This document shows positions 1-20,462 of a DNA stretch of 37,310 bases, piece by piece. The DNA is taken from the NCBI GenBank assembly GCA_913055585.1, contig CAJXKN010000004.1, positions 1 through 37,310 of the forward strand. Direction: 5' to 3'. The translations under genes were made by a program, and so were the position numbers. Source of the DNA: an uncultured Caldisericota bacterium. GTDB lineage: Bacteria > Caldisericota > Caldisericia > Caldisericales > Caldisericaceae. The notes beneath the pieces were generated by a model. The model saw nothing but the letters and a program-made list of their open reading frames with translations, was not told the origin of the DNA and did no database searches. The first letter of the stretch is position 1. Every line of letters begins with the position of its first letter.

Positions 1-168
1 CCTGAACTCGTTTCAGGGTCGACAATTTGAGGGGGTTAAAAAGCACCCCCTCAATACTCCCCCGAAAAAGACAAAAAATGAGATGCTGAAACAAGTTCAG
101 CATGACACTGCAGAGATGCTGAAACAAGACCTGGCAAAAACAGCCAGGGAAAAGATTGCAGCATGACA
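1..168. repeat. Intergenic palindromic repeat cluster A
   Basis: cctgaactcgtttcagggtc (1-20), hairpin TTGAGGGGG..CCCCCTCAA (27-54), gagatgctgaaacaagttcagcatgaca (80-107), nested hairpin gagatgctgaaacaagacctggc..gccagg..cagcatgaca (113-168). Confidence 0.85.
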
Positions 169-172
169 TTAC

Positions 173-264
173 TTAATCCTATATCCCGAATCCTATATTC
201 ATCATTCAACATCCATCATCTAACATTCAACATCCTATATCCTAAATCCTATATCCTAAATACG
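173..264. repeat. Imperfect tandem short repeat (cctatatcctaaat-like units)
   Basis: Repeated cctatat/cctaaat/cattcaacatc units; a similar tract lies at 7680-7711. Confidence 0.75.
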
Positions 265-323: not shown

Positions 324-3300
324 TTAGGGAATGAGAGATTTAGCCCATTTTGGGAGTTCTGGTGCATTCCCATTCTCAATCATTGACTGCCATTTTTCAT
401 CTGTGAGCCTGTTGGACATTTTCTCTGTGAATTCATAATAAGAGAAAACTGGCCCTTTGAAAAGATACAAATCATTATTGTACCGTGCTGCAACGTATAT
501 TTCAAATACATTACCTACGCCTTCTTCAAGAACAGTCCCACCATTTGGGTCTGTATGAATATCAGCGACAAGCGCTGTTTTACCATCACCTGCTCCCATT
601 ATGTCACTACTAAAATCTTCTGGAAACGTCATCAGAGCTTTAAACGCATCCTTAAACTCTGAGAAATACATACTATCCTCTTTATCAAGCGGTGTGTTTT
701 CCAATTCCTTTTTAGAAATTACTATAGCTTCATTTGTGAGACTCTTTAGTGACTCTATTTTTGTCTTTAAAACATCAGGAAGCAAGCCTCTCTCGGATAG
801 TCCTTTTTCTGTCATATCAAGCAACGTAAGTAAACGTTCGTATCCTTCGATATTTGGCTCTACGTATCCTGGCTGAGGCAATGGTGGAGCAGTCTTTAAA
901 GTATAGCTCTGTTTTGCATAAAGGATTGTATCATGCTTTAGCTCCGTGTAAGATGCAAGAGCGGTAAATAATTCTTTTCTTGACCAATTTTCATTTTGCA
1001 TAAAAAATGGATAGCCGCTACCTCTTTTACCTTTTGCATAAGTTTTTAAAAGTGAAAGCCATCCCCAGTATAAGTTTTGCAGCCAATCCTTTATTGTAAA
1101 ACTATCTATTTCTTTTCTCAATGTTTTTACCTGGTTTACGTATGCTTCGTTTTTATTCTCGTTATAAACGTTTAACATAATGTTTTCTGCTTCCTTATTT
1201 CCAAAAACATTAAATAGATCCATTGCTTTAGGTAACATTCTATACCCTGCCTTTGGGTAGACGAGGTTTTGCAAAATATATGCATCCAGCGTAAACCGCT
1301 GCCCCATAAACCTGAAGCCTTTCTCTTTATTTATTTCTGCACCTATCGTACTAATTTTAGGATTGGGCAGTGCAAGTGCTTTTCCAATAAAAGCATCCAG
1401 CTTCTCTGTATCTGTTAAATCATTTAATGAAACCGTTTCACCATAAATTGCTTTAACAATTGGAATGTAATTATAAAAATTGATATCGTCAGACCTTCCA
1501 ACAAAGAATACGGTAGGCTCATATATTTTATCGTACAGCGCTAAAAGCTTCGGATTATCGGAAAGTACAAGCGTGATAAGGATAGCAGACTCTGTTTGTG
1601 AACGTCCCATCTGTATTGCTTCTTTTGATGTGCCTGGCTTCAACAGGAAACGCATCCTTCCGTACCACATCATTGATTTAAAGTAACGTTTGAACGTTTC
1701 GTTTCTTGTATAATGCCCTCGCGGGACGTACTGCGAATAATCCTCTTTATAACCAAATAGCGGTGAAACTGCAATGCCTTTGTGTGCATTAATCAGTGCA
1801 AATTCCTTATTTGCCGTATCCTCAACCTCCTTTTTTATATCAGGATTCAATTCAACCGGAAGTAGATAATCAGGATTGAGGAGTTTCTCTCCAATGTAAA
1901 AGAAAGTGATATTTCTTTTGGCTGCTTCTGCTACTAATTGGTCAGGAGCAGTATAATACTGAGCAATAGAATTCATAATCATTTCTCTGTTTAGCTTATC
2001 AAGGGTATCTACAAAATAGTGTATTTCATCATACCTCAAGGACATATCAATCAGGATATGATATGCCTGAAGGAACGTATCAAAGGAAATAAAAAGAGGC
2101 TTCCCTCCATTTTTTTCGTAGAAATCACTAAACGTATCGTAATTTGATTTCTTTATGAAAAAGCCGTTATCCTTTAGAGCATTCTGCTCTTTATCTGTGA
2201 GATTGTATTGAGAAAGATTTTTAATATCCTTTATCTTATATGTCGGAACTTTAGCTGTATATGAAATGGATGCTTCCTGCTCTGTTTCAAAAGGCTTTTC
2301 TTCTATAGACTGAATTGAATATTTTAGGCTCTTCGGATTTATTGACATCGTTCTTTCCATAAAGTTTGCTGCTTCGCCTCGTGTCAAAGAACTGTAAGGC
2401 TTAAAATAAAGCTTACCTGAACTCTTTACACCAAATGCTATCCCATGATAATAAGCTGTAATAATTTCTTTATACCCAAAATAAGAAGGTTTCAAGTCAA
2501 CAAATGGATTTTTCCTATCTACAAGAGGAATTTTCTGAGCTCTTATGAGCATCGTAACAAACTCTCCACGTGTGATCTCTGCATTAGGAGAGAATTTACC
2601 ATTGCCCGTGCCTTTTATAATTCCTCTCTTATACGCTTCTTCAATCCATGTAAAACCCCAGAAGTTTCGTTTCACATCAGAGAAATCTTGTTTATAATTT
2701 CCCGTTGGTTTAATACCCATTAATCTTAAAATAAGTACAGCACCTTCCGTTCTGGTAAGATGCCTGTTAGGTTTGAACGTACCATCAGGATAGCCCTTTA
2801 TTAATCCTTTTTGATATAACTTTCTCACACTGTACTGCACAGTAGGGTCAGTAATATCTTTGAAAGGCAGGTTAACGGTATCTGAAATGGTAAATAAAGT
2901 AGATGCAAGATATGCAGATTCTGTTTTACTGAGAGGAGTTTTTGGAACAAGCCAAAAGCTTACTCTGTATTCCCCAACCGTCACTGAATTGCCTGTATTG
3001 CTTTTTTGATCCCACTCCACAGTAAAGCTTTTACTGCTATGTGCAGGAATCTCAAGATGCGTTATGACCTGCGCAAACTTTTTATGCAAGGACCATTTGT
3101 AAACAAGTTTATTTAAGCCAACATTTACAATTGAAAAATCATAAATCTGTGCTGTATTAAAGGTAAATCTTACAGGGGTATCGCTAACATTAGTAACTGT
3201 ATAAGTAATCTTTACGGGTTCTCCTACCAAATAATAATCCTTGTCCGTTGTTACTTTTACCTTTATATTCTCCCCTTGTGCATTCTTGGCATAAAGCGGC

Positions 3301-3377
3301 CAAGGAAAAGATTGTGCAGAAATTGCAAATGAAAATAGCATACAAAAAACAATAAAAGCAATTAATATTTTTTTCAT
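324..3377 (-). CDS. Secreted protein: signal peptide, BsuPI-like domain, three SLH repeats, DUF3160-like region
   Basis: 1017 aa; N-terminal MKKILIAFIVFCMLFSFAISA signal; SLH motifs (FKDITDPTVQYSVRKLYQKGLIKGYPDGTFKPNRHLTR etc.); C-terminal half resembles DUF3160. Confidence 0.8.
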   Translation of the reverse strand: MKKILIAFIVFCMLFSFAISAQSFPWPLYAKNAQGENIKVKVTTDKDYYLVGEPVKITYTVTNVSDTPVRFTFNTAQIYDFSIVNVGLNKLVYKWSLHKKFAQVITHLEIPAHSSKSFTVEWDQKSNTGNSVTVGEYRVSFWLVPKTPLSKTESAYLASTLFTISDTVNLPFKDITDPTVQYSVRKLYQKGLIKGYPDGTFKPNRHLTRTEGAVLILRLMGIKPTGNYKQDFSDVKRNFWGFTWIEEAYKRGIIKGTGNGKFSPNAEITRGEFVTMLIRAQKIPLVDRKNPFVDLKPSYFGYKEIITAYYHGIAFGVKSSGKLYFKPYSSLTRGEAANFMERTMSINPKSLKYSIQSIEEKPFETEQEASISYTAKVPTYKIKDIKNLSQYNLTDKEQNALKDNGFFIKKSNYDTFSDFYEKNGGKPLFISFDTFLQAYHILIDMSLRYDEIHYFVDTLDKLNREMIMNSIAQYYTAPDQLVAEAAKRNITFFYIGEKLLNPDYLLPVELNPDIKKEVEDTANKEFALINAHKGIAVSPLFGYKEDYSQYVPRGHYTRNETFKRYFKSMMWYGRMRFLLKPGTSKEAIQMGRSQTESAILITLVLSDNPKLLALYDKIYEPTVFFVGRSDDINFYNYIPIVKAIYGETVSLNDLTDTEKLDAFIGKALALPNPKISTIGAEINKEKGFRFMGQRFTLDAYILQNLVYPKAGYRMLPKAMDLFNVFGNKEAENIMLNVYNENKNEAYVNQVKTLRKEIDSFTIKDWLQNLYWGWLSLLKTYAKGKRGSGYPFFMQNENWSRKELFTALASYTELKHDTILYAKQSYTLKTAPPLPQPGYVEPNIEGYERLLTLLDMTEKGLSERGLLPDVLKTKIESLKSLTNEAIVISKKELENTPLDKEDSMYFSEFKDAFKALMTFPEDFSSDIMGAGDGKTALVADIHTDPNGGTVLEEGVGNVFEIYVAARYNNDLYLFKGPVFSYYEFTEKMSNRLTDEKWQSMIENGNAPELPKWAKSLIP

Positions 3378-7276: not shown

Positions 7277-7775
7277 TGTCACCCTGCTCCTTTCCTTGGT
7301 AAGCATTACGCCAAGTCTTGTTTCACTCCCCCCATTGTCACCCTGAATTTATTTCAGGGTCTTCAACTTAGAGGGAACAAATTTCCCTCTAACTCCTATT
7401 AAAAGAGTAAAAAGATAAAAACAAAGAAAAGTAAAAGAGGAGATGCTGAAACAAGTTCGGAATGACAGGATAGAGACAAAAGATGAGATTGCTTCGCTTC
7501 GCTCGCAATGGCGAATGAGATGCTGAAAACAAGACTTGGCCTAACGGCCAAGGAAAAGAGCAGAATGACAAGGAAAAAACAAAATGATCATTCTGTCTTG
7601 TCACCCTGAATTTATTTCAGGGTCTTTTTTTTAAAAACAAAAAAATGAGATTCCGGACCAAGCCCGGAATGACATTACTAAACCCTATATCCTAAATCCC
7701 AAATCCTATATGCGAGATTCTGAAACAAGACTTAGCACAAAACAGCCAGGGAAAAAGCGAAATGCTGAAACAGTT
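7277..7775. repeat. Intergenic palindromic repeat cluster B
   Basis: 7277-7325 inverse nested element; 7336-7362 and 7599-7625 tgtcaccctgaatttatttcagggtct; 7368-7392 TTAGAGGGAA/TTCCCTCTAA hairpin; 7440-7467, 7485-7512, 7517-7570, 7647-7674 and 7714-~7775 gagat-[stem]-atgaca family; 7680-7711 cctatatcctaaat tract. Confidence 0.85.
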
Positions 7776-20141: not shown

Positions 20142-20462
20142 GAGATGCTAAAACAAGACTTGGCTTAACAACCAAAGAAAAAGCAGCACAGCATGACATT
20201 CTTTTTTGTCACCATAGACTCGTTTCAGGGTCTATTAATTTGAGGGGGTTAAAAAGCACCCCCTCAATGCTCCTATTTTTTTCGTCACCCTGAACTCGTT
20301 TCAGGGTCTATTTTTTAAAGACAAAGGAGGAGATGCTGAAACAAGTTCAGCATGACGAAGTAAAAACAAAAGAGAGATTCCGGACCAAACCCGGAATGAC
20401 AGGATAGAGAAGAGAGAGATACTGAAACAAGACCTGGCTTAATGGCCAATGAAAAATTAAAG
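20142..20462. repeat. Intergenic palindromic repeat cluster C
   Basis: 20142-20198 nested type; 20207-20225 and 20284-20309 gtcaccctgaactcgtttcagggtct type; 20232-20259 TTGAGGGGG/CCCCCTCAA hairpin (same as 27-54); 20330-20357 gagatgctgaaacaagttcagcatgac; 20374-20401 gagattccggaccaaacccggaatgaca; 20416-20462 degenerate nested type. Confidence 0.85.

Follow-up and report, generated by a model that had tools for sequence, protein, structure and literature searches.

The palindromic repeats in the 37,310-nt stretch of DNA from an uncultured Caldisericota bacterium analysed here (the window) are almost certainly CGTC-tagged REP elements. In the source genome, opposite-facing neighbours always combine a nearly constant with a variable stem class (34/34), a rule that has an energy measure attached and from which same-facing neighbours, the control, are exempt. 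Taken as a whole, the repeats are probably CGTC-REPs that have spread and been kept mainly as this two-class composite in a Caldisericota lineage. The kind of repeat was already described in 2013, and its occurrence in the phylum Caldisericota is new.

Identity of the repeat units

An earlier note on this DNA had listed six units, all at correct coordinates, sharing the frame GAGAT...ATGACA. This frame is the outer part of a dispersed hairpin that, read from the opposite strand, consists of a [T/C]GTC tag, an 8-bp stem opening with A, a 5-nt loop and a CT[C/A/T] tail. The frame is real and well beyond chance: a 27-nt pattern, its centre restricted to the two main stem types, had 44 exact matches in the source genome and none for the reversed-pattern control, and a stem-based scan of 557 kb (a non-random sample, 25 of whose contigs were picked for carrying matches) found 93 units, as compared with 4 in the reversed sequence. 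Its proposed ending is not general, since the copy at 20330 ends in ATGACG, the canonical CGTC tag on the other strand. The scan did not prescribe the first base of the tag, and T or C preceded GTC in 93/93 units (TGTC in 86, CGTC in 7); none of these units had a GTAG tag. Nearly all units had a CT tail (CTC 52, CTA 25, CTT 12). The 5-nt loop of the 93 short units and the A-T first pair of all distinct units were imposed by the scan; the second pair was T-A in 20/32 and C-G in 11/32 distinct units. A covariance model detected at least 133 units genome-wide in the source assembly (G000; 1.29 Mb, 140 contigs, 75% complete). At the Rfam gathering score, there were no matches within the window.

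CGTC-tagged REPs, described by Di Nocera, De Gregorio and Rocco in 2013, carry at one end an unpaired CGTC tag, often altered to TGTC, followed by an 8-9 bp stem with almost invariably A-T at pairs 1 and 2, a 4-5 nt loop and a 3-nt unpaired tail, mostly CCA; head-to-head dimers dominate, tail-to-tail dimers are rare, and there is no dedicated or associated transposase gene (PMC3733652). The Caldisericota units share the C/TGTC tag, the 8-bp stem whose first base is A (and which mostly begins AT), the 5-nt loop and the 3-nt unpaired tail, as well as the predominance of head-to-head dimers, the structured spacers, the frequent heterodimers, the intergenic location and the lack of a transposase, and the REP-like character that the earlier note had suggested is thus borne out. 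They differ in the CTC/CTA tail, in a fixed partner class with a C-G second pair (ACCC; the A-T second pair of the description occurs only in the AT class), in larger clusters, long two-tier units and T-tracts past the stem, and in less rare tail-to-tail pairs (12, versus 22 head-to-head); moreover, the phylum is not on the 2013 list. The dRS3 repeats of Neisseria and RPE-4/RPE-6 of Rickettsia, placed among the CGTC families (PMC3733652), have different stems and hosts, and are likened to the present units by that assignment, not base by base. GTAG-REPs, REPINs and BIMEs with RAYT (TnpA-REP) are similar in the hairpin with an unpaired tag and in the inverted pair as the apparent unit, but have a GTAG tag and a linked Y1 transposase, neither of which is present in the Caldisericota units.

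Table 1 Repeat units and dimers located in the window.
Feature	Position	Strand	Description
Long two-tier unit	113..168	-	outer stem ATGCTG/CAGCAT, internal loop, inner hairpin CCTGGC..GCCAGG
AT-type CGTC-REP unit	80..107	-	stem ATGCTGAA/TTCAGCAT; spacer hairpin GAGGGGG..CCCCCTC at 24-60
Head-to-head pair	7336..7467	.	AC-type 7336-7363 (+), spacer with inner hairpin AGAGGGAA..TTCCCTCT, one-arm chimeric AT unit 7440-7467 (-)
Separate-family unit	7485..7513	-	tag CGCC, arms ATTGCG/GCAAT, tail CTC
Long two-tier unit	7517..7570	-	unlike outer arms ATTCTG / CAGCAT
Head-to-head heterodimer	7599..7674	.	AC-type 7599-7626 (+), 20-nt spacer, AT-type 7647-7674 (-)
Long two-tier unit, degenerate	20142..20198	-	
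Degenerate AC-type unit	20207..20234	+	followed by spacer hairpin GAGGGGG..CCCCCTC at 20237-20273
Head-to-head heterodimer	20283..20357	.	AC-type 20283-20310 (+, tag CGTC), 19-nt T/A-rich spacer, AT-type 20330-20357 (-, tag CGTC)
AT-type CGTC-REP unit	20374..20401	-	stem ATTCCGGG/TCCGGAAT, tag TGTC

Stepwise change of the stems

In the alignment of units, the tag and tail columns were almost invariant. Among the 32 distinct units, five of the eight stem pairs varied on both sides and 96.5% of the cells were paired, a value that fell to 14-59% when the partners were slid out of register, supporting the earlier view that the fold and edges are kept rather than the stem sequence. Cells changed on both sides numbered 48, as compared with 16 in shuffles, and included some G-U pairs. 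The earlier note had further read the variation as a swap of both arms. Compensatory change is indeed present; however, the six perfect stems (ACCCTGAA, ATCCTGAA, ATGCTGAA, ATTCTGAA, ATTCCGAA and ATTCCGGA) connect through single-base-pair steps in one network, with the same loop and tag, indicating that the apparent exchange arose mostly through compensatory changes made step by step. A few units are chimeras that combine the arms of two stem types. In one of these, 7440-7467, the arms ATTCCGAA / TTCAGCAT come from two stem types and the minimum free energy is 0 kcal/mol, so that only one arm has been exchanged and the unit, contrary to its earlier description, is not a palindrome. Mismatched outer arms occur in long units, too.

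The unit at 7485, previously counted as a third stem variant, belongs to a separate family. This family has 12 copies in 557 kb (0 in the control), its own (C/T)GCC tag in 12/12, ATTGCG...GCAAT arms and mostly longer cores, and no intermediates linking it to the other stem classes were seen among the 12 copies. The 7485 copy itself folds no better than shuffled sequence (z -0.03).

The long two-tier units retain the outer stem, with an internal loop and an inner hairpin (CCTGGC..GCCAGG or CTTGGC..GCCAAG) in place of the loop. A strict pattern found 30 copies, and the bare inner-hairpin motif 87 matches versus 0 in the control; these units are the exception to the 5-nt loop. They recall the long bulged REPs of E. 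coli in form, with no shared origin claimed, and the coexistence of long bulged and short forms is also found in the REPs of E. coli and Pseudomonas (PMC8266576).

Opposite-facing neighbours in the source genome are always unlike

The short units fall into an AC-type class with a nearly constant stem, ACCCTGAA (41 perfect copies), and an AT-type class with a variable stem. The earlier note had overlooked the AC partner class on the opposite strand (ACCCTGAA...TTCAGGGT at 7336, 7599 and 20283), as well as the long two-tier units that begin at 113, 7517 and 20142. Among neighbours less than 150 bp apart, opposite-facing ones were AC/AT in 22/22 head-to-head and 12/12 tail-to-tail pairs, and same-facing ones were of one class in 11/12. 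The best of 20,000 shuffles reached 19/22 AC/AT head-to-head pairs. A rule of "different stems" alone would give AC/AT in 69% of pairs, with a probability of 3e-4 for 22/22. The head-to-head spacers form two sets, 19-21 nt (11 pairs) and 51-66 nt (11 pairs), and the long ones hold conserved inner hairpins, either GAGGGGG..CCCCCTC or AGAGGGAA..TTCCCTCT. Such pairing and spacers would be expected of copies derived from a single ancestral composite. Class and strand were concordant in 41/42 clusters; single units are common, and clusters hold up to five units.

The energy gained by a joint hairpin, calculated with DNA parameters, had a median of -2.9 kcal/mol for the real pairs and -19.8/-19.5 for imagined homodimers. 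In the window, the heterodimer at 20283..20357 folds into one long hairpin (-33.7 kcal/mol, z -8.5) and that at 7599..7674 into two hairpins (z -5.4); the AC-type partner of the unit at 80..107 is truncated by the contig start (1-21). In a pattern-collected sample of 80 loci from other phyla, the stems differed in 64/70 opposite-facing but only 6/15 same-facing neighbours among the matches listed (Fisher test, 4e-5; 7e-3 without duplicates).

The absolute heterodimer rule with a fixed partner, the measurable folding effect and the orientation bias described below are moderately surprising. The authors of the original description, who also discuss SbcCD removal of long hairpins, write of the bias towards unlike partners that it "has no obvious explanation" (PMC3733652). 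Hairpin avoidance and an inherited fixed composite both become testable explanations of it, and the heterodimer rule may help to explain the old puzzle of how such repeats persist.

The main caveats concern the fragmented assembly and the empty sites. Long perfect inverted repeats interrupt short-read assemblies, and homodimers could therefore be hidden. Many clusters sit at contig ends, and contigs of the source genome often end in or beside repeat arrays (e.g., position 1 of the window, L169, L172, L180 and L186), suggesting that the assembly breaks there and that the full arrays probably extend beyond what is seen. The comparison with relatives yielded no empty site, as the gene neighbourhoods compared differ between the genomes: the aldolase upstream of the 7336-7674 array occurs in relatives without the GHMP-kinase neighbour, and other conserved gene pairs are repeat-free.

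Genomic setting

The units are intergenic, and their distance to the nearest gene end ranges from tens of nt to about 500 nt, in most cases a long way for a main terminator. Of the 25 clusters faced by the 3' end of exactly one neighbouring gene, 21 have the AT hairpin in the sense orientation of that upstream gene (p 0.0009). The orientation also agrees with the GC skew (29/42, p 0.02), a weaker signal than that of gene direction, and given this agreement a replication-strand cause is possible. A T-tract follows the stem in 43/47 AT and 30/43 AC units, as compared with 26% of random windows of the same genome, and in 9/11 units of the sister genome G001. Its frequency in other phyla is close to background (44/187 versus 295/1600, 18%), suggesting that the terminator-like tail is a local addition and not a family trait. 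A pattern scan found three terminator-like sites at 20-20.6 kb of the window, versus 0.6 expected. We tentatively regard the AT hairpin with its T-tract as a putative terminator or 3'-end stabiliser in the Caldisericota lineage, a role that may or may not hold.

Distribution

The covariance model counted at least 133 units in G000, 105 in G001, 20 in G012, 19 in G008, 17 in G010, 9 in G006, 8 in G014 and 6 in G002 (all minimum numbers); each remaining family or class genome searched had two, one or no matches among its best 150 candidates. The repeat pattern also occurs in records from Bacteroidota, Spirochaetota, Patescibacteria, Melainabacteria, Nitrospirota, Dehalococcoidia and Proteobacteria, and CGTC-REPs thus extend well past the five phyla of the original list. 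Two MAGs, one labelled Rickettsia typhi and the other alphaproteobacterial, have dense arrays of CGTC-REP dimers (L107, L126). No CGTC-REPs were reported in R. typhi (PMC3733652), which makes the former label doubtful.

Proposed spread and upkeep of the composite

The mobiliser of CGTC-REPs has not been known since their description in 2013. The earlier note had proposed a TnpA-REP-like enzyme, and the hairpin with an unpaired 5' tag does look like a substrate of RAYT enzymes, the REP-associated Y1 tyrosine transposases thought to move GTAG-REPs as miniature transposons; some Y1 protein is also encoded in 28/50 other carrier genomes. However, no Y1 transposase was detected in the two family genomes richest in units, namely the source genome and G001 (at least 105 units, 91% complete), or in the other 22/50 carriers. 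Genuine units adjoined 0/30 carrier Y1 loci (flank matches, 6 versus 7 in the control), the same non-association as in PMC3733652. The lack of a dedicated transposase reported there is repeated here across more phyla, and movement by RAYT is very unlikely. Even less probable is an origin as miniature elements of a cut-and-paste (DDE) transposon with TGTCA...TGACA ends. The composite does start with TGTCA and end with TGACA, but direct duplications of 2-11 nt were not in excess at either possible boundary (22 + 49 dimers), and no recurrent transposase was present near the other-phyla repeats among the 25 most frequent of 203 families from 148 flanking genes. That the stem classes are unrelated families with flanks shared by chance, which the earlier note had named as the outcome that would overturn its reading, holds for the CGCC-tagged class at 7485; for the other six stems, which share loop and tag, are chained by one-pair steps and have a frame pattern free of control matches, it is scarcely credible.

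The repeats might instead be bidirectional intrinsic terminators or 3'-UTR hairpins under RNA selection, multiplied by selection and gene conversion and not by mobility. The T-tract frequencies of both classes in the source genome, the sense orientation of the AT hairpin and the G-U pairs in the covariation all speak for this possibility. Against it, near-identical 28-nt copies, tag and loop included, exceed what a terminator needs, the other-phyla copies do without T-tracts above background, the copy number is patchy between genera (at least 133 and at least 105 in two genomes, 0 in several), and up to five units cluster together. On balance, we consider this origin unlikely.

It is reasonably likely that spread and upkeep would proceed mainly through a composite of a constant AC hairpin and a variable AT hairpin, with outward tags and a T/A-rich spacer. 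We infer that the composite may be copied in trans by an enzyme, probably through a single-stranded intermediate. The stems would drift pair by pair, either by correction of a mutated arm from the other arm or through a mobiliser that reads only the fold and tag. Unlike partners would survive because the cell removes the long hairpin or cruciform into which a perfect 28-bp inverted repeat, its arms separated by 20 nt, would fold. A stricter version, which we regard as quite doubtful, would have CGTC-REPs spread as an element of two obligatory parts, one end being fixed and the other free: the enzyme would recognise the sequence of the fixed hairpin, but only the fold and tag of the free one, and the free stem would walk one base pair per step, with the avoidance of a match to its partner as the sole limit.

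Other features in and around the arrays

An ORF between an AT and an AC unit (L188, 2519-3790) was considered as an autonomous element and rejected, since two separate, partly decayed dimers bound it. It encodes a 423-aa protein with an ATP-binding-looking N-terminus, and two ACAAGTACATTATAATGTACT-like palindrome copies precede the gene (L188, 2440-2500). The inner palindromes that fill long dimer spacers are of two kinds, GAGGGGG..CCCCCTC and AGAGGGAA..TTCCCTCT (window 24-60, 7370-7392 and 20237-20273), and those at 24-60 and 20237-20273 share 97% identity. Tandem-like AATCCTATATCCTAAATCC runs adjoin long units (window 178-264 and 7684-7712), with similar runs beside long units elsewhere in the genome. 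On the reverse strand of the window, 324-3377 encodes a 1017-aa protein with a BsuPI-like domain, S-layer homology repeats and DUF3160.
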